From contig VCJN01000537.1 in assembly GCA_006384855.1 (NCBI GenBank), positions 1-64,000 on the forward strand: a stretch of 64,000 nucleotides of DNA, written 5' to 3'. Position 1 is the stretch's first letter. Every line of letters starts with the position of its first letter. The DNA comes from Tetraselmis striata (Eukaryota > Chlorophyta > Chlorodendrophyceae > Chlorodendrales > Chlorodendraceae). Both the position numbers and the translations under genes were made by a program. Positions 20,970 through 62,577 of the stretch are shown here, in pieces. The notes beneath the pieces were generated by a model. It was given only the letters and a program-made list of their open reading frames with translations. It did not search any database and had not been told where the DNA came from.

Positions 20970-21262
20970 TTCAGGGCAACCCTGGTTGTGACCCGGCGAG
21001 GGACAATGTCTCCCCGCGCCGCCGCCCGCCCTCCCGCGCCAACCACAACAACGTTCACTGCAGTGCTGCGGACAACCGCCACTGTTTCCCTGCTGCCACC
21101 GGGTGAGCGTCCATCGATTTGGCGGATACCTGTAGCACGAGCAACGGGGCGTGGGCCGACAGTGGGGCCACGTGGGGTCCCAGACAGCCCTCCCTTTGCC
21201 CGCCCCAAGCCTCCTCCGTCCGCCCCCATCGCTTTACCTCATCTCGACTGCGCATCTTGGCA

Positions 21263-22426
21263 ATGGCGCTCCGCTGCCGTCTGGCCAGACTCGCGGCCGG
21301 CGCGCACGGGCCTGTGGCTGCCCGTGCGCTTGGCGGGTGGGGCCTGCCCGGGGCCGAACTCCCGCAGTCCGCGCCCACCCACAGGGGCTTTACCCTGCTA
21401 GCAGCAGTGGCGGGATGGGGCGGCCCCAACACGGCGGACGTCGCGCGCGGCTCTGCGGCCAGTCCAGGGTTGTCTGCTGGCTCAGTGCAGCTTGAAGGGA
21501 GGACACAGCTGGCGGCTGCGAACACGCTAGGCGGGCTGATGCTCCGCGGGTTGAGCACACAGGCAGCAGCAGACTTCACGGATTACTCCGTGATCGGCAA
21601 GATTCAGGAGAGCTATGAGGAACCGGCGGCGCCCACGGTGTTTGCGGTGGTGGAGGTAGGGGCACACCAGTTCAAGGTGGCTGCTGGGGACATCATCACC
21701 ACGGAAAAGCTGATCGGGCTGGATGTGAACGATAAAGTGACGCTCAACAAGGTGCTGATGCTCGGGACGGCAGAGGAGACGGTCATAGGTAAGCCGCCCA
21801 TCGTGCAGGATGTGCTCTCATTAGATGCCTGCTCTGCCCGCCGGGTGCTTCCATCTCCTAGTCATTCAGCACCGGAGCAAGCTGAACTGCTTTGCTGTGT
21901 GGACTATTCAGGCCGCCCGCTGATTCCCAATGCGCACGTGGTCGCGGCTGTGGAGGTGCCCCCTCCCCCCCACCCCCTCCCCCCTCCCATCCATCTCCTG
22001 CCTCCCCTCCCCACCCTCCTTGCAACCACCGCCGCCGCCATGGAACTCCCACGCGTTTCTGTATGTCCCACCCCCTGCGCTCCTTCAGCATGAGACGCCT
22101 GCATGCCATGTTCACATCATCCCCCTCCATGCCATGAGCTCACAGTCTCACCGCTTGATGCAGGAAAACTTCCTTGACGCCAAGAAGACCATATTCAAGT
22201 TTCGGCGCCGAAAGAACTCGAAGACGTTGAAGGGACATCGCCAGGTACCGTCTGCTGCTGCCCTTGCCTTCCCAAACTGTAGATGCCCTACACACCAGAG
22301 TGGAAGACTAAACCCGTGGTTGCAATCACACACCGCTGATCATGTTGCGTCCCCTTGCAGTCCCTGACGAATCTCCGAATTCTGGAGGTATCTAGCGCCG
22401 AGGTGGAGCAAGATGTCGCCGCTTAG
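21263..22426 (+). CDS. Organellar ribosomal protein bL21 (mitochondrial likely)
   Basis: Four exons in consistent phase: 21263-21788, 21912-21955, 22164-22244 and 22361-22426 (TAG), about 238 residues. Residues 1 to about 110 form an Ala/Arg/Gly-rich presequence with few acidic residues, typical of organelle targeting. The L21 domain follows: VFAVVEVGAHQFKV near the start, DKVTLNKVLMLG, then GRPLIPNAHVVAAVE, FRRRKNSKTLKGHRQ and the final LTNLRILEV, all hallmark bL21 segments that bind 23S rRNA in the large subunit. The start ATG 21263 precedes the presequence. Mitochondrial (NFD1-like) rather than plastid targeting is a guess. A TGTAA motif lies 72 nt after the stop. The hAT element sits about 280 bp upstream and may affect the promoter. 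Confidence 0.92.
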
Positions 22427-40500: not shown

Positions 40501-41723
40501 CTGTACGATTGGGGCATACAGCGTATGATTCCTGTCAGACTGATGTACCCCGTGGTTGGCTATGTCCTCGACCGGGCTAACGATACATGCCGCAATGTAG
40601 GGTGCGCTGCAGGTCGGGTATCCCTCCCTCTGATGTCCAGAGTCAAGCGCTGCCCCCCGCCCCCCTTCCTGTACTCTCCCCCTGGCCCACCCCTGGTAAC
40701 CTATGTACTCCCAGCAGCTGTACCCCTTGTGCACACAAACATGTGCATGCCGGGTGGGTGGGGTGGGGGGGGTAACTTGCCTCCAACGCATTGCCCCAGT
40801 CCTCCTGCGCCTTCTCGTACTCTTTGAGCTGAGCACGCGTGAATTTGGACGTGTCGCGCGTCTTTGATGACTGCATGCCGGCGCATGAGCAGGAGGTTTG
40901 GGGGGGGGGGGGGGGGGCAGTGAGTGAATGGCCTGGAGGCACACCGTTGGCCCATGCGATACAGGGGTGATGGGTGGGGGCAGGACGGACCAACAGGACG
41001 CGCCCCTCGGTGTTGCTCAGGATGGATTCCGAGTCCGCTGTCTTCTTCCGCCTGCCTCTCTTCTTGCGTGGCTGTGCCTCTGGAACGTGCGCCTCCCCTG
41101 CGTCATCCGCCTGCAGCATGGCAATGACGTCTGCCTTCTTCGCTGCCACCGGCAGCCCCCGCTCCTTGGCGAGCTTCTTCAGCTCCGCCACCCTCATGGA
41201 GGAGTACTCCGCAGCGGGGCTGTCAGTCTGCAGGGGAGTGGGATCGGGGACAGCACTGCTGCTGCTGCCGGTATCCGACTCAAGTATGCGGGCAATCATG
41301 TCTTGCTTCCTGGTTGGTACCGGTAAACCGCGAGCTTGCAGGACGGATCTCAGCTGCTTCACGGTCAGAGTAGCGTATTGCTCAGACGCGCCGGAGGTGT
41401 CGGGGGAGACGGAGGCGTCCGCTGCCGGTTGCTGGGCCGATGTCGCAGTGGAGATACGCTCAATCAGGTCAGCCTTCTTCCCCCTGGAATCCAGCTGAAG
41501 CTGCGAGCACAGCTCTTTGAGCTGGGCGACGGTCTTTGATGCCAACGCGTCAGCCCTAAATACATAGGGGAGGGAGCATAGCTGGCGGCTCAGGAGCTGC
41601 GCGCACTGCCTTTGCCGTGACGAAACGCACACGCATGTAGATGCATAGGATGCCCCTCCCCCCCATATCCACTCTTCCATTGGTTGCCATGTTTGACATC
41701 TCTCCGGGGGCGAAAGTGGAGTG

Positions 41724-41761
<38 letters not shown>

Positions 41762-41965
41762 AACAGGGTCCGCTATGAGCAGGTACCTGTATTCGTTCGT
41801 CGCGGAACAAAGCACGCCCCGAGAGACGGAAGCGCCGAAGGGCAGCCGCGGCTGTCCGTGGCCAAGCACCAAGCCAGGGCGGCGGCGGGCTGGGGGGGCG
41901 CCACTCCCGTGCCGTCTCGCAGCTAGCAGAGCGGGCGACATCCGCATGGCGTGAGAGAGCATCAT
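37546..41965 (-). CDS. Triple-SAP, KOW-domain protein, probably plastid nucleoid/transcription factor
   Basis: Thirteen exons in consistent phase, about 790 residues: 41965-41787, 41555-about 41000, 40870-40781, 40293-40178, 40072-40000, 39870-39793, 39691-39530, 39437-39399, 39308-39222, 39115-38981, 38857-38281, 38178-37997 and 37641-37546 (TAA). The first 55 or so residues are Arg/Ala/Ser-rich without acids, like a transit peptide. Three SAP modules follow (VAQLKELCSQLQLDSRGKK; VKQLRSVLQARGLPVPTRK; VAELKKLAKERGLPVAAKK), which bind DNA. The C-terminus has a KOW motif (PVEVVDGPFKTLRGTVLE) continuing into RALFVRLDILGRDTDVEL as in NusG/Spt5. The middle (IPDTLTHYLVTTMDKATKK, RNEVTGNVKTEQVHYEHGD) is not recognised. 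SAP and KOW domains occur in different plant pTAC proteins; a relation is inference. Exon 3 appears to use a GC donor (GAG|GCAAGT). Confidence 0.8.
41726..41760. repeat. (GA)n microsatellite in intron 1 of the SAP/KOW gene
   Basis: About 17 GA units between exon 1 and exon 2. Confidence 0.85.
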
Positions 41966-42433
41966 GCTGGCGACGACGGATAGCCTGGCGCGAGGCGACC
42001 TACTGCGGAGCCGTCGCCGGTAGTCTGGGCTACGGTTATTCGCCTGTGGTAAGGCTCCAGGCCGTCTTGGCAAAGTCAGTGCCCGTCCGCACCTACCCAC
42101 CCGCTGCCGCGCCGTACGTCAATGCTTTGGGTTCAGGCATCATCTGACGAGAACTACAGATAGCGACTATTACCTGTACCAGTACCGACGAAGCGACGAT
42201 GGCGGCCAACCTCACGCGCAACGGCGCGCCGAGGCGCCGACATTCTGACGAGGCTTCCTCCCCCCTCGCCGGCTTCCAGCCCGGATTATAATAAAGAATA
42301 ATGTAGTTACATGAGCTCCCTGCAGAGGGCGATCAGGAAACCACCCGAAAAGGCAATAGGAAACGTCCACTACAGCAATTGCGCGGTGGAAGCAGCACCA
42401 GAAGATTGTGCGGAATGAGCACGGGCAGACGCA

Positions 42434-44310: not shown

Positions 44311-45498
44311 CTACCGCACCGCGCATACGACCTGCAGCCGCATGGTCTCGTGGTGGCAGCCGTATCCCGACATGCCAAAAGAGGCGATGCGCTCCAACAG
44401 TGCGGCGTGGGCCACCCGGCGCCGCCCCAACGCACCGGTCATCCACCAGGGGTAATGGCTAATAGGAGCACCCAGGTACACGGCGCCATCATGGACAGGG
44501 TCGCCGCCCGGGGTACGAAACCCTCCCGGGGCCAACTTCGCCCTAACTGTCCGCAACGCGGCCTCGCTGTCACCGGGGTGACGAACGTACCGCGTCTTAC
44601 AGCCATGAACCAGCACCAATCCGACTTTGAAAAGCTCCGTACCATACTCGTCAAAAACACGCGGAACGTGAGCCGCGGCAGTACCCGCGCCGCAATCATC
44701 CGCGAAACTCTGGCAGAAAGTATCAGCGGCGGTATGAGCCACAACCGCTTGCACCGGGCCGGCGATAGCGAGGCAGAAATATAGCGGGGCCAATACATCA
44801 CCATCGCGCACACCTATACGAGATTGTAGGGTGGCGCGCAAAGTACCGGGATCATCCGGCGCGTAGTAGTACATGTCGCTAGGGCGATCGTACAACATCC
44901 GGAAAAAAAGGGATAAGGCCATGTAGACGCGGGTCTTGAGCCATCCGTCAAGTATCGCACCCCGGGATACCTCATTGAAGGCATTTCGAATATCCATGAT
45001 GAGTAGTAGCATGCTCCCTTTGCCGCCGGTACCACGCCCGCCGAAAAGCTGGTACCACGCCACCCGCATGCTCATATAAAAGCCGTGTCGGAGCCAACTC
45101 CAGACTGAAATCTGCGTTGTACCGGGCCCATGGCATCCCGCGCATCGGCACCCGGCTGCACGAGAGCGTGGGCGGAGGCAAGGCGCACCAGCACGGAGCC
45201 GACGCCAAGCGGGCGCGCGTACTCGCAGCGGCTCGCCGGTCTTCGCCCGCTCCTCGCGCGCGGCGGTATGGTCCTTGTGGAGCGCAAACACGGTGCCACT
45301 CGCCAAGAAAGCCGCAGTGCGCGAGTGGCACCGCCCCGCTAGGCAGCGGTTTACCCACATGCGCCATAAAGGTACGTCTAGGTCCCTGATGTGCTCCCAA
45401 CGCCACCAACTCATATGCCCAACGGAAAGGCGGGGAGCACGCGCAGAACCCGCCGATGGTCCTCCCCCAGCACCGCCGAACCTCATCCACATTGCCAC
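44311..45498 (-). pseudogene. Reverse transcriptase domain (RVT_1-like), frameshifted
   Basis: Motif A MDIRNAFNEVSRGAIL (near 44998-44950), motif B GVRDGDVLAPLYFCLA (near 44810-44765) and the catalytic FADD in CQSFADDCGAG (near 44715-44690) occur in order. Upstream, the conserved RPLGVGSVLVRLASAHAL block sits in another frame (near 45225), so at least one frameshift lies between 45250 and 45080. The N-terminal part (HMSWWRWEHIRDLDVPLWRMW...FALHK) is also typical of this RT type. The FADD aspartates are preserved although the gene is broken. Copy A lacks this whole segment. Confidence 0.8.
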
Positions 45499-46826
45499 CC
45501 CATGACACCGGCGCCCGCCGCAGGTCCGGCGGCTCCTCGGGAGGGGAGTACTCCGGGTCGGTGGGATCAGGAGGTGGATGGAGGGCTTCGAGGACAGTCA
45601 GGGTGCGCCGCAGCGGCGTCGGACACCATATTACCGAGGTCGGCCGTGTCCATTGCATGTCAAGCGCGGCGCAGCTCCTGCACAACAGCGAGTTTCGCTG
45701 CCCGGCGGTGAGCATCTACCACCGCCGGCGGCACCCCATCCGCCGCAGCATCGGCGCCCCCCTCCGCACCCTCTTCAGAAGCAGCCCGCGCCCTCGCAGA
45801 CCGCCGGCGCTTCCGCCGGCGGGCACTCCGAGACGTGCCCGCCGGCAGCTCCCCCGCCTCCATATGGTAATTGTGTAACTCGCCGCCATCCCACGACTCG
45901 CGCCACAATTGCTGCATCCCGCACACCGAGAAGCCGGCGCGCACAGCATCCCCCGCCTCCCACAGCCGCACTCGCCGCTCCGGCTAATTTCCGCACAACT
46001 GCGGGGCTGCTAGATGGGTAGGGTCGTAGTAGCAGCCCCGCAAATACGCAGACAGCGCCTTCGGCCCCGTACGACCGGTCGTCGTTAGGAGGGAAGCGGT
46101 CACCGTAGGCCATCTTACGGTCTAGCAGGGGGAAAAGGACATGGCGCGCCGCGCCGCGGGACAGGCGCCGACAGCCGTACCCCGCAGCGGCGTACATGGC
46201 ATCATGCGGTACACGTTGCGGGTACCGCACCACCGAGCGGTGGCCGCGAGGGCGGCATCATATGGGCGGCTGAGGCAGCAGCCGGCGCGTGTTGGCGTTG
46301 TAGCGCCCGCACGCTAGCTGCCGACGCCGGGAGAGCCACACCGGGGGGGCGGAGCCGTGGGAGGGGGGGGGTGCAGAACTCGCAGGTGGCGGCATGGGCC
46401 ACCGCTCGCGCGCCATGGAACACGTGGTGGCCCAAGCGGCGCGGGCAGCTGGCGCTCGTGGGGCGCACCGCACATACACAGAGGGGTCAAAAGTCGCAGC
46501 GTAGGCGAAATGCATGGCAGCTACCGCCGGGACGTCGAACTCCATCCCGTGGTTCACGTGCATGCACGGGGGGGCGGGCCGCGGCTAGGTGCGTCCGCAG
46601 CTGCCATCGCAACACCGGAGTTGTCATTCAACGCCCCCGCCGGGCGTCGACGACTGCATCTGCGCCATCGCAGCGCCGCGCGCCCACCACCACCACCGCC
46701 CCCGCCGGGACCGCGACCTCCACGGCAGACACCCTAGCTAGCAGAGGGGCTTGGAGGGGCCGGAGGACGCCCCACGGTGCTGATTCCCCACCGGCCACGC
46801 CACAGCTAGAAGCCGGGGGTCGGGGG

Positions 46827-59354: not shown

Positions 59355-59381
59355 ATTTCAAAGTTGAGTCTGGTTTTGCCA
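59355..59381 (-). repeat. B2 split direct repeat (27 bp), outer 3' end of the element
   Basis: Identical to B1. The outer flank is GCGATATCGC-AT, a perfect palindrome next to the insertion point. Confidence 0.85.
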
Positions 59382-59474
59382 AAAAGGTCGCGCAGGCTGT
59401 TTTACACGGTCAAGAGCCGAAATTGGCAGGAAGGTTTAGCGAAAAGCGTGGAGGGAAAACGGAGTCAGGGCGGG

Positions 59475-59661
59475 CGCTGCGTGGAACGCAGCGAAAACTG
59501 GAAGATGGCAGGCTCAGCTGTTCTGGCTGCTTTTATGTCTACTCGTGCTGCACCCAACAAGGGCGCAACAACAGTTACTAGTTCCCGTACCACTGCGCAG
59601 CACTTGTAGCTGAAAAGCGGTTAGGTCAAGGATGGAAACCCCATAAACTAGTTTAGATCAT
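59475..59661 (-). repeat. A2 split direct repeat (187 bp)
   Basis: Copy of A1. It overlaps B1 by the dinucleotide AT at 59660-59661, the probable recombination core. Confidence 0.9.
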
Positions 59662-59686
59662 TTCAAAGTTGAGTCTGGTTTTGCCA
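59660..59686 (-). repeat. B1 split direct repeat (27 bp)
   Basis: Plus-strand ATTTCAAAGTTGAGTCTGG followed by TTTTGCCA; directly adjoins A2 and lies 53 nt after the recombinase stop codon. Confidence 0.85.
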
Positions 59687-59739
59687 GTCTTGAGCGAACG
59701 TAGAGAGCGGTGGATTGACGGAGAAGGGGTAGCGCCAAG

Positions 59740-61365
59740 TCATGAAGGAGGCACTGGGAAGGCCACCGCTGCGGAGTCCTGTTGGACTTGGAAGTGGCGG
59801 AGGGGGGCGATGTGTCCAAAGAAGAACCACGCGCCAGGAGAAGGAAGAACGTTGGGGTCGATGTAGTCCAGAACGACATCGGAGTTAGTGGCCCAACCGC
59901 CTTGGTAGCGGATGTGGGACAGTGGCGCTCCGATGGCGTTTGCTGCAGAGGCTGCGCCCTTACGTAGACTGTGTGAAGTCCAGGAAGTGCCAGCAGGAGG
60001 GGCAGCGTTGACTAGGTTGACCGCTGTAGACAACCAGTCTGACATCGTAGCTGCAGTCCAAGGTTTTGACTGCTCAGCCACATCGACAGCCCAGAAGTTG
60101 GAGGCAGCCAAGCCAACAGTAACCAGGGGGACAGACTGGACGTTGTCGATGAAGTAGCGCAAGAGTCGTGCCACTCGAGGGTGCTCGGACACTGGAAGGA
60201 GAAGTACGCGCAGGTCGTCGGGTCCCCGACGGCCAGCGCGACCCTTCTCGCGGTAGATCTGCAAGGTGATGTTGTAGGTGTCGACATGCACATCTTGCGC
60301 TCGACAGGAGACGCCAGTAAGGCCCCTGGCAAAGAACAGGAAGTTGACAACCGTGGCCAAGAGGGCTCGGTAGTCGAGGTGGGACTCTGGGTAAGGAGCA
60401 GACACAATTAGCTCGGCCTTTGAGACGAAGCGGTAAGCTACATCCGCAGGCAGAGGGACACGCAAGGGGGCAGCGTCCAGTCGGCGCTGCCGCAACATTA
60501 ACCCACGCCTTGCCGAAGTGAGGTGTAGGCTGTCCTTGGCGATCGGGACGAGGTTGTGCAGCTCGAAGAAGGTGTTGATGGCAGACAGGTAGGGCTGCAG
60601 CGACTTAGCTGCGATGTGCCCTCGCTCCCCGATCCATGCAACGTACCGAACAACAGTAGCAGTAGTCGCCTCTAGAGGGCTGATGTTCTCGGAGTCGTGG
60701 CAGAACTCAGCGAACTGAGACAGTCTGCCGGCGTAGCTCTTGAGGGTCTGAGCGCTGAGGGAGCTGGAGAGCAGGTCGAGCGTCCGCTGGCCTAGCTCGT
60801 CTGAGCCGAACGCGTCCTGTAGTCGGGATCGCAGTGACGCAGCCCACGGAGCGATAGCTGCGGGCTCGTCGATTACGTAAGTGCGTCGTTTTACTGACAG
60901 AGTGCCACCGGCACGGCCACTGTTCGCAAAGTACTCGGCAGCAGCGGTTAGGTTCCCGGCGGTTGGCCGGTAGTTGCTGGACGGGTTTGCAGTAGCTTCA
61001 GTACGGGTTTGCGGGGCTAGGTTCAGGTAGGAGGGCCGCCCCGCGCGCCCTTCGCGCTCGTAGCGCCTGTCCCGTGCGTAACGTACACGCGCGAAACTTG
61101 GTCGTTGCGAACCGGTTGTAACTCGTAGCGTAACAACCGACGAACGCAGAGATGGTGTTGTACGAAAAGCGGTTGGTTGAGCCGCCATGTGCAGGTGTGC
61201 GGATGGTTGAGCCGCACTCGGCTGTAGCTGTAAGAAGCGCCGCACCGAGGAAGGTCTAAATGAAGTCTGTAAGGTGGGGGGGTCAGGTCCTGACACAGGG
61301 CGCTCATCCCGCCGTTGAGCTGCAAGGGTGCGTTTTGCGGCGGTCACCGAAAGGTGGCCTCGCAA
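59740..61365 (-). CDS. Tyrosine recombinase (DIRS/Ngaro/Crypton-type)
   Basis: About 540 residues; no ATG near the start (first codon shown is TTG), consistent with expression as a fusion with Gag. The N-terminal 150 residues are Arg/Ser-rich. A SAM-like core-binding region follows (SLSAQTLKSYAGRLSQFAEFC...VVRYVAWIGERGHIAAKSLQPYLSAI). Catalytic residues in order: Arg in LTGVSCRAQDV, H-x-x-R in SHSLRKGAAS (about residues 465-468), Trp in YQGGWATNSD (about 491) and the nucleophile Tyr in VLDYIDP (about 501). The HSLRKGA and GGW...YI form is typical of eukaryotic YR retroelements. The domain looks intact. It would join a circular DNA to the genome at the AT core. Confidence 0.88.
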   Translation of the reverse strand: MRGHLSVTAAKRTLAAQRRDERPVSGPDPPTLQTSFRPSSVRRFLQLQPSAAQPSAHLHMAAQPTAFRTTPSLRSSVVTLRVTTGSQRPSFARVRYARDRRYEREGRAGRPSYLNLAPQTRTEATANPSSNYRPTAGNLTAAAEYFANSGRAGGTLSVKRRTYVIDEPAAIAPWAASLRSRLQDAFGSDELGQRTLDLLSSSLSAQTLKSYAGRLSQFAEFCHDSENISPLEATTATVVRYVAWIGERGHIAAKSLQPYLSAINTFFELHNLVPIAKDSLHLTSARRGLMLRQRRLDAAPLRVPLPADVAYRFVSKAELIVSAPYPESHLDYRALLATVVNFLFFARGLTGVSCRAQDVHVDTYNITLQIYREKGRAGRRGPDDLRVLLLPVSEHPRVARLLRYFIDNVQSVPLVTVGLAASNFWAVDVAEQSKPWTAATMSDWLSTAVNLVNAAPPAGTSWTSHSLRKGAASAANAIGAPLSHIRYQGGWATNSDVVLDYIDPNVLPSPGAWFFFGHIAPLRHFQVQQDSAAVAFPVPPS

Positions 61366-61401
61366 GGCTCCTGCAGCTCCGACGAACGGCGCCCCACACC
61401 G

Positions 61402-62277
61402 TCACTCGTGCTCACCTTCGCGGCCACGTCCACGTCCGCCGCCACGTCCTCGCCCACGCCCGCGACCTGCAACTGCAGCCGCCACTCGAGAAGTAGCGGT
61501 CGCCTTGGCGCTGCTGGCAACGGTCGCCTCGAAGACACGACGCTCGTAGTCCCGCATGAGGTCCCCAAAAATCGCGGAACCCAGATGCTCCGAAGCAGGC
61601 TGAAAATGCTGGGCTCGCAGCACGTCCAGAACACCTTGGTCACCGTGCACACGCTTGATCTCATTGAGCTTCCGTAGGAAGGCCAAACGAAACCGAAACG
61701 CCTTGTCGATGGCCTCGGCGTGGTTCCGGGCTCTCGCGAGGTAGGGGGTGAAGTCCTGGTTGCTGGAAGGGACGTAGGGCAGTAGCTCGTCGAGCGCCAC
61801 GAAAAGGGCGGCCATGTGAGCCCCGAAACACGACATCCACAAGTACTCCTCCTGGGCCGGCAGACGCCGGTCATCCTGCTTGAGGTACTCGTTCGTTAGG
61901 TCGGTGCTCAAAGGGAAAAGTCCAGGCACTCGGCTGACCGGTCGAACGGCCTCGTAACCAGACTCTGCTCTCTGCAGTAGCTCTGGCACCGCGAGGTAAT
62001 CATCCTCGGCACTCACGGATTTTGCTCCGACACGGCCGCTCTGGGCTAGCTCTAGCAAGTCGGGGCGCTCTGCGGCTCCCCCGCTGCCTGTCGGCTGTCT
62101 CGCGAAGCGCTGCCCTGAGCCGGAGCCATGTGCCCCTTCTCCATCAACAACGCGATCACGAACCGTCAATTGTGCCACAGTTGTAGCCAGCTCTCGCAGT
62201 AATGAAGACTGGGCCCTCATATCTGCGTTCAGCGACTGCAACGTCGGCTCAGCGACGGGTTCTTCTCCATCTGACAT
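61402..62277 (-). CDS. Gag-like protein of the YR element
   Basis: ATG 62277 (MSDGEEPVAEPT), 291 residues to TGA 61402-61404. The N-terminal 40 residues are predicted coiled-coil-like (ADMRAQSSLLRELATTVAQL); the middle is helical (EYLWMSCFGAHMAALFVALDELL, ARARNHAEAIDKAFRFRLAFL); the tail is an RG-rich box (GRGRGRGRGGGRGRGRE), which would bind nucleic acid in place of a CCHC knuckle. Position and architecture fit Gag of DIRS-order elements; no direct domain match is claimed. The same frame continues past the TGA into the recombinase, so Gag-YR fusion by readthrough or splicing is possible. Confidence 0.65.
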   Translation of the reverse strand: MSDGEEPVAEPTLQSLNADMRAQSSLLRELATTVAQLTVRDRVVDGEGAHGSGSGQRFARQPTGSGGAAERPDLLELAQSGRVGAKSVSAEDDYLAVPELLQRAESGYEAVRPVSRVPGLFPLSTDLTNEYLKQDDRRLPAQEEYLWMSCFGAHMAALFVALDELLPYVPSSNQDFTPYLARARNHAEAIDKAFRFRLAFLRKLNEIKRVHGDQGVLDVLRAQHFQPASEHLGSAIFGDLMRDYERRVFEATVASSAKATATSRVAAAVAGRGRGRGRGGGRGRGREGEHE

Positions 62278-62390
62278 AGTAACGCACGGACGTACGGACG
62301 AGAATATCACACTCGGGTGGCGAGCCGGGTGTGGTCTTGAACAACCTGGGGTGACCTTGCTCGCAACGGGTTACGAGACAGTTTTTACAT

Positions 62391-62577
62391 CGCTGCGTGG
62401 AACGCAGCGAAAACTGGAAGATGGCAGGCTCAGCTGTTCTGGCTGCTTTTATGTCTACTCGTGCTGCACCCAACAAGGGCGCAACAACAGTTACTAGTTC
62501 CCGTACCACTGCGCAGCACTTGTAGCTGAAAAGCGGTTAGGTCAAGGATGGAAACCCCATAAACTAGTTTAGATCAT
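62391..62577 (-). repeat. A1 split direct repeat (187 bp)
   Basis: Same sequence as A2 by eye over its whole length. Its inner end is a hairpin, CGCTGCGT-GGA-ACGCAGCG. Confidence 0.9.

Follow-up and report, generated by a model that had tools for sequence, protein, structure and literature searches.

The locus described here raises the question of how an element bounded by split direct repeats, which encodes a Gag-like protein and a tyrosine recombinase (YR) without a reverse transcriptase (RT), is able to multiply. It occupies positions 59355-62577 of a stretch of 64,000 nucleotides from the alga Tetraselmis striata (contig VCJN01000537.1, positions 1 to 64,000, assembly GCA_006384855.1), termed the window below, and its coding strand is the minus strand. 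An earlier reading of the same DNA, made without database searches (the sequence-only reading), suggested that the element may be either a parasite of an autonomous DIRS-like element, providing Gag and YR for itself, or a lineage that replicates as a DNA circle. Our analysis confirms that the RT-less element is real and is not a product of chance or of assembly. We consider it likely that it represents a high-copy, non-autonomous lineage of the DIRS order (PAT/Toc-like), which possesses its own Gag, YR and split repeats and is served by RT in trans.

Structure, copy number and coding constraint

On the minus strand the order is A1-Gag-YR-B1A2-93 bp-B2 (B2-93 bp-A2-B1-interior-A1 on the plus strand). 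A1 (62391..62577), a 187-bp repeat, lies at the 5' terminus in the coding direction and is identical to the internal copy A2 (59475..59661). The 27-bp B1 (59660..59686), which overlaps A2 by 2 bp, is identical to B2 (59355..59381), the 3' end, and a spacer of 93 bp (59382..59474) lies between A2 and B2. Both pairs of direct repeats and their split layout had been given correctly to the base by the sequence-only reading, as had a Gag-like open reading frame (ORF) with an RG-rich C-terminal tail. This ORF (61402..62277, minus strand, ATG at 62277) encodes 291 amino acids followed by a TGA stop; it has no significant Pfam match and no zinc finger by Pfam. The YR frame of 553 amino acids (59740..61401, minus strand) is open straight from the Gag stop, from 61401 to 59743, with its first Met at 61188 and its own stop at 59742-59740. 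It matches Phage_int_SAM_1 (E 6.3e-8) and, under the curated cut-off, Phage_integrase (E 0.0019), and in an alignment with three relatives the residues R, H-x-x-R, W and Y occupy corresponding positions. A short hairpin (CGCTGCG-TGGAA-CGCAGCG) is found at the inner end of each A repeat (62391-62409 and 59475-59493).

A genome search for further copies, as had been proposed, found 1,889 places that match the B repeat with no more than one mismatch, compared with none for a reversed-pattern control. The B1 context accounts for 892 of these places and the B2 context for 845, and copies of the element, truncated ones included, number on the order of 900. Among the matches listed in a DNA search, 39 of 41 rows were near-full-length copies at 96-100% identity. 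The repeats recur on many contigs, and no RT remnant was found in the window element by tblastn, which disposes of the two outcomes that could have undone the earlier account, namely a single copy with a deletion scar and repeats created by assembly. Protein relatives of Gag and YR are, among the matches listed, nearly all T. striata gene models (identity up to 99%); one relative with 90% identity, P0002, comes from a metagenome contig.

Internal stops are absent from Gag in 133 of 134 scored copies and from YR in 77 of 80, in line with the earlier impression of an intact recombinase; the scored copies are the best-scoring ones, so that older broken copies are under-represented in these counts. 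The lowest identity among the fetched copies is 79% over the coding region. Across copies the crude ratio of nonsynonymous to synonymous changes per site (N/S) is 0.32 for Gag residues 1-252, 0.14 for the Gag tail and 0.26 for the YR core, and substitutions show a strong third-position excess in both Gag and the YR core. Purifying selection seems to act on both proteins. Gag and YR are connected in differing ways in several T. striata gene models, apparently by introns as judged from the proteins; the other frame that these models use in the Gag tail is unsupported because the shared changes there lie at third positions of the Gag frame (4, 2, 24 by codon position).

The two ORFs have no Pfam match to RT or to a Dam-like methyltransferase, and tblastn searches of the window element with DIRS-type RT gave only short, chance-like matches (lowest E values 0.036 for a piece of the protein P0271 and 0.5 for the T. 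striata RT described below). Gag directly adjoins YR in all 48 copies in which the junction was read (79-100% identity). The earlier claims that RT is absent and that Gag and YR are adjacent are thus both upheld. About 152 B sites, a rough figure obtained by subtraction, fall outside the B1 and B2 contexts, and ten such loci were inspected (L040, L045, L047, L048, L054 and L055-L059). Gag stands next to YR in seven of them. Only repeats and parts of YR are present in L040 (truncated), L056 (rearranged) and L058 (interrupted, not read up to Gag, and ~68-72% identical). In L057 a further, incomplete copy stands in head-to-tail arrangement. A fragment of DIRS-type RT on the opposite strand was observed at L058:3896-4081 (C221), within DNA inserted into this old interrupted copy.

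The UGA between Gag and YR

A feature beyond the earlier account is that Gag and YR share one frame, interrupted by a single TGA (61402..61404, minus strand), in a readthrough arrangement. In an alignment of 49 junctions, of which 48 are informative (window included), the TGA and the following C are invariant, and the next triplet is CGG in 47 copies and CGA in one. Twenty-nine of the 48 copies (window included) are more than 97% identical and 19 are below 97%, so the independent evidence for conservation of UGA-CGG is smaller than the count implies. The 112 nt directly 3' of the stop (61290..61401, minus strand) are predicted to form an extended stem-loop (-57.8 kcal/mol, z -3.2; a single one of 200 shuffles was as stable), the stem opening ~7 nt 3' of the UGA. 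Among 122 folding windows across the coding region, none had a lower energy or a lower z than the one starting 4 nt past the stop, and z was below -1.7 in 19 of 21 copies folded at the junction. Within the family, stem pairing is kept in 98% of cells, as opposed to 25-46% when the pairing is slid.

Type II readthrough, as set out in a review (PMC3542737), involves UGA followed by CGG or CUA, often with an extended stem-loop ~8 nt downstream. The RT-less element has the same UGA-CGG context (47/48) and a 3' stem-loop as a predicted fold. This combination is the textbook type II signal, which makes it probable that YR is produced as a Gag-YR protein by UGA readthrough; the viral cases are known from RNA viruses, whereas here the signal is predicted from sequence. 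A UGA between gag and pol is known in a retrotransposon, Tca2 of Candida. Translation of the region between the UGA and the first Met is suggested by its 71 codons, in which changes shared by at least two copies are distributed 8, 13 and 26 by codon position (p 0.0016); the next 111 YR codons are similar (shared changes p 0.00035, all changes p 0.094, N/S 0.40).

Several observations weigh against readthrough. Two of the 21 folded copies, the near-duplicate pair L047 and L048, have no excess stability, and within the family the stem displays no covariation in the form of compensatory changes, its pairing being no better than in column shuffles. When all changes in the 71 codons are counted (26, 34, 38), the p value is 0.15 and N/S is 0.61, indicating weak constraint, and the 32 codons beyond the stem are under little constraint (N/S 0.94).

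RT-bearing relatives and the route of copying

A YR search among long proteins returned 56 matches, two of them not from T. striata. YR placement consists of pairwise identities with the relatives at hand. P0271, whose YR is 36% identical to that of the element, has an RNase H (ribonuclease H) match just under the cut-off (PF17917, E 8.8e-5) and, by eye, an apparent RT end. P0263, from another organism, combines a Gag-like N-terminal part and a YR in one protein; the former is 30% identical to the Gag of the element over 153 amino acids (E 4e-13, a single comparison) and the latter ~40-41% identical to its YR (40.2% in the alignment with relatives). With the RT piece of P0271 we obtained at least 131 scored matches in the T. 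striata genome (of 2,565 candidates) at 46-49% identity. Among those listed, 113 of 131 have no stop within the match, and many lie in open frames of 849 or 763 amino acids.

The RT-bearing relatives that the sequence-only reading had anticipated are thus present, and one of them, of the 849-amino-acid type, could be laid out (C2236:7394-12308; L069, L066 and L068). This 4.9-kb element has the same A1-ORFs-B1A2-spacer-B2 layout as the RT-less element, with an A1 of 181 bp (99.4% identical to A2), B repeats of 32 bp (97%) and a spacer of 91 bp, and the B repeats of the two families share TGGCAAA...AAAT. The B|A core is AAATGATC in the RT-less element and AAATGGTC in its relative. The latter differs in possessing RT-RNase H (RVT_1 E 1.5e-11, weak RNase H) in a frame overlapping the Gag-YR frame, together with a Dam match under the cut-off (PF05869, E 0.0052). 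Its YR frame is in phase with the Gag-like frame across UGA-CGG and is open for 1,096 amino acids through the RT overlap; over the 5' part of Gag this frame is closed, perhaps through a C run. All four RT-bearing copies seen have TGACGGTGTGG at the end of the Gag-like frame, 11 bases that are identical in the RT-less element. Past UGA-CGGUGUGG in C2236:7394-12308, the 112 nt are of different sequence but are likewise predicted to form an extended stem (z -3.9; none of 200 shuffles was as stable). P0263 can be aligned over the full length of the Gag-YR frame of this relative with W at the stop position, and a Gag-YR fusion is plausible because P0263 presents both parts as one protein. On the other side, P0263 is a protein record only, and splicing in the gene model might account for its single frame.

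The YRs of the RT-less element and of the RT-bearing family are 39.6% identical. As the YR is about equally far from this family and from P0263 (40.2%), the RT-less lineage appears to be old and not a recent deletion derivative of this RT-bearing family. The same distance weakens the case for co-packaging of the two families, as do terminal sequences that are not alignable between them, a comparison of the two Gags that gave no BLAST match (E 7.6), and genome searches in which no RT-bearing element with the B repeat of the RT-less element was found. Closer RT-bearing families may exist, since the genome RT figures cover only the matches listed. A second DIRS-type RT family has a 763-amino-acid open frame (e.g. 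C292:25886-26791), with no YR in the 1.6 kb downstream; a YR upstream of this RT was rejected as its partner, belonging instead to an ordinary RT-less copy. P0080 was rejected as an RT-YR fusion, as its RT part reads by eye as Ty3/Gypsy RT joined by a gene model. Family searches with RVT_1 and Phage_integrase were dominated by other RTs or left out the YR of the element and do not settle the question of a helper, and IMG/VR scans, each limited to six short peptide patterns, yielded no relatives.

The repeats themselves bear on the route of copying. The accepted explanation of split repeats is that the ends are rebuilt from the internal B1-A2 copy, which predicts concert between A1 and A2. Across 18 copies that have both A repeats, A1 and A2 show no fixed difference at any column, and in 11 copies (seven with A repeats identical to those of the window being omitted) A1 and A2 differ by 3.5 positions on average within a copy as against 10-12 between copies. 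None of 20,000 random re-pairings of A1 and A2 was as low as observed, a count that is no strict probability because the copies are related. Within a copy, A1 and A2 thus change together, which is what models of reverse transcription lead one to expect; this favours an RT step, since copying through DNA only would let them drift apart. The pattern has exceptions, and they weaken the case for RT: L043, L051 and L052, three of the 11 copies, each have one or both A repeats closer to the repeat of another copy than to the partner, in L054 the partner ties with the A repeat of another copy, and gene conversion is a further process that might keep A1 and A2 alike.

Sixteen copies have both ends; in these, A or G precedes TTTCAAAG, A, T or G follows TAGATCA, and any target duplication is, by eye, limited to a few bases. 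In an empty-site search with L043, the joined flanks match another repeat family across an indel-rich junction, mostly at 75-78%, and no long target duplication was found there. The B1/A2 junction equals the predicted circle junction. Match coordinates place the RT-less element in tandem arrays with a period of ~2,916 bp in C348 and C2249 and 3,203 bp in C764, and the one array junction read (C2249) is an exact A-B1 junction. Such arrays can arise by integration of a circle or through unequal recombination between A repeats, and they do not tell the two apart.

From the anatomy, the copy number, the constraint on Gag and YR, the UGA-CGG with its predicted fold, the RT-bearing relatives and the concert of A1 and A2, we infer a cycle that would involve readthrough, particles, RT in trans, and RNA and circular intermediates. 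A transcript from A1 would be translated to Gag, and a small fraction of ribosomes would pass the UGA-CGG and stem-loop to yield a Gag-YR fusion, through which YR would be carried into the Gag particle. The RNA would be copied by the RT-RNase H of RT-bearing DIRS-type elements in the same alga, the internal B1-A2 copy would restore both ends, and YR would insert the circular product at the B|A core with no target duplication. The parasite suggested by the sequence-only reading remains plausible in this form because an RT-bearing DIRS-type element of the same genome has the same repeat layout, although its terminal sequences differ and its YR is only ~40% identical.

The DNA circle, the other earlier suggestion, would dispense with RT altogether: YR would excise a circle, host replication or gap repair would copy it, YR would reinsert it, and Gag would have some other role. 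We regard this as unlikely. RT is indeed missing from the 48 copies with the junction read, YR is intact in 77 of the 80 scored, the B1/A2 junction is that predicted for a circle, and the ~2,916-bp arrays with the exact A-B1 junction in C2249 are what a circle integrating there would leave. However, unequal recombination between A repeats yields the same arrays, both RT-type relatives examined have RT or RNase H together with YR, and a circle route alone accounts neither for the kept split repeats, nor for an excess of Gag over Gag-YR, nor for the concert of A1 and A2. A third possibility is that the element arose recently by internal deletion from one RT-bearing element and was amplified passively, with ORFs intact only because the copies have had little time to decay. 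It is suggested by the many copies at 98-100% identity and by the layout shared with the RT-bearing family. We find it very unlikely in view of a YR that shares only ~40% identity with that family and about as much with P0263, the lack of any RT remnant by tblastn, the direct adjacency of Gag and YR in copies down to 79% identity, and the constraint on both proteins.

RT in trans might instead be provided by the abundant Ty3/Gypsy elements; RVT_1 genes with long open frames are numerous (at least 150 scored, Gypsy-like by eye from P0080 and by frame length). DIRS-type RT genes are numerous as well, and the one such element laid out has the repeat layout of the RT-less element. Different priming is expected of long terminal repeat (LTR) elements, and we consider this source highly improbable. 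Supply by DIRS-type elements is the form of the trans reading that we favour. Only tentatively do we put forward the more specific proposal of a long-lived RT-less YR lineage with Gag and a readthrough-made Gag-YR, in subfamilies of hundreds of copies, which would either act as a satellite that packages and integrates itself and captures foreign RT in its own particles, or replicate RT-free as DNA circles in Gag particles.

Relation to known elements and significance

RT-less elements are known in other settings. Chlamydomonas TOC1 is an RT-less algal element. TR-GAG and other RT-less LTR elements of plants have kept Gag and lost Pol, and their movement is thought to use RT from elsewhere; unlike the RT-less element of T. 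striata, they are without YR or split repeats.

The element resembles the PAT/Toc group in its A1-ORFs-B1A2-B2 split direct repeats and YR; its Gag-like ORF has no zinc finger by Pfam, and the Gag of Toc and Kangaroo is described without one (PMC4157794). It differs in having no RT, RNase H or methyltransferase. Ngaro elements (e.g. of Cafeteria burkhardae) also combine A1-[ORFs]-B1A2B2 repeats, a Gag-like ORF1 and YR (PMC8547959), but possess RT and RNase H, whereas Gag and YR are adjacent in one frame here. Cryptons encode a YR domain only (PMC4157794) and share with the RT-less element a YR without RT, in contrast to its constrained Gag-like ORF and split repeats. Of the features that define the DIRS order, the element thus retains the split repeats and the R, H-x-x-R and Y of YR, and lacks RT-RNase H and methyltransferase; its Gag-like ORF, similar to the N-terminal part of P0263, is a candidate Gag. 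It appears to work in the manner of PAT/Toc-type elements and to share their stock; because RT-RNase H is lacking, we file it as an RT-less variant and not as a full member of the order. As the sequence-only reading had supposed, no RT-less Gag-YR element is described in the literature searched (PMC4157794, PMC8547959, PMC3266345, PMC8226300, PMC12440569), to which subscription literature and Repbase do not belong, and no readthrough in YR retrotransposons is described there either.

Elsewhere in the window, an ORF at 44314-45597 (minus strand) with a weak RVT_1 match (E 0.0035) and a FADD motif is probably a remnant of the long interspersed nuclear element type, and by eye is not DIRS-like. 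Three SAP-domain stretches (E 2.4e-28) occur in an ORF at 40646-42118 (minus strand), and an ORF at 21107-22090 (plus strand) matches ribosomal protein L21p (E 3.2e-11), perhaps as an exon of an organellar-type L21 gene.

YR retrotransposons are among the least understood retroelements, and how they produce YR, form circles and restore their ends is largely model-based. A compact and numerous element with near-identical copies, which separates Gag and YR from RT, makes each of these steps separately testable, as is the UGA readthrough signal common to the RT-less element and its RT-bearing relatives. If readthrough occurs, these DIRS-type elements would use the viral means of setting the dosage of Gag to Gag-enzyme. 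If RT is supplied in trans, the element would be a clear case of a retroelement satellite with its own particle and integrase and no polymerase of its own. Were either RT capture or RT-free circle replication to prove true, it would represent a mode of transposition undescribed for YR elements in the literature searched.

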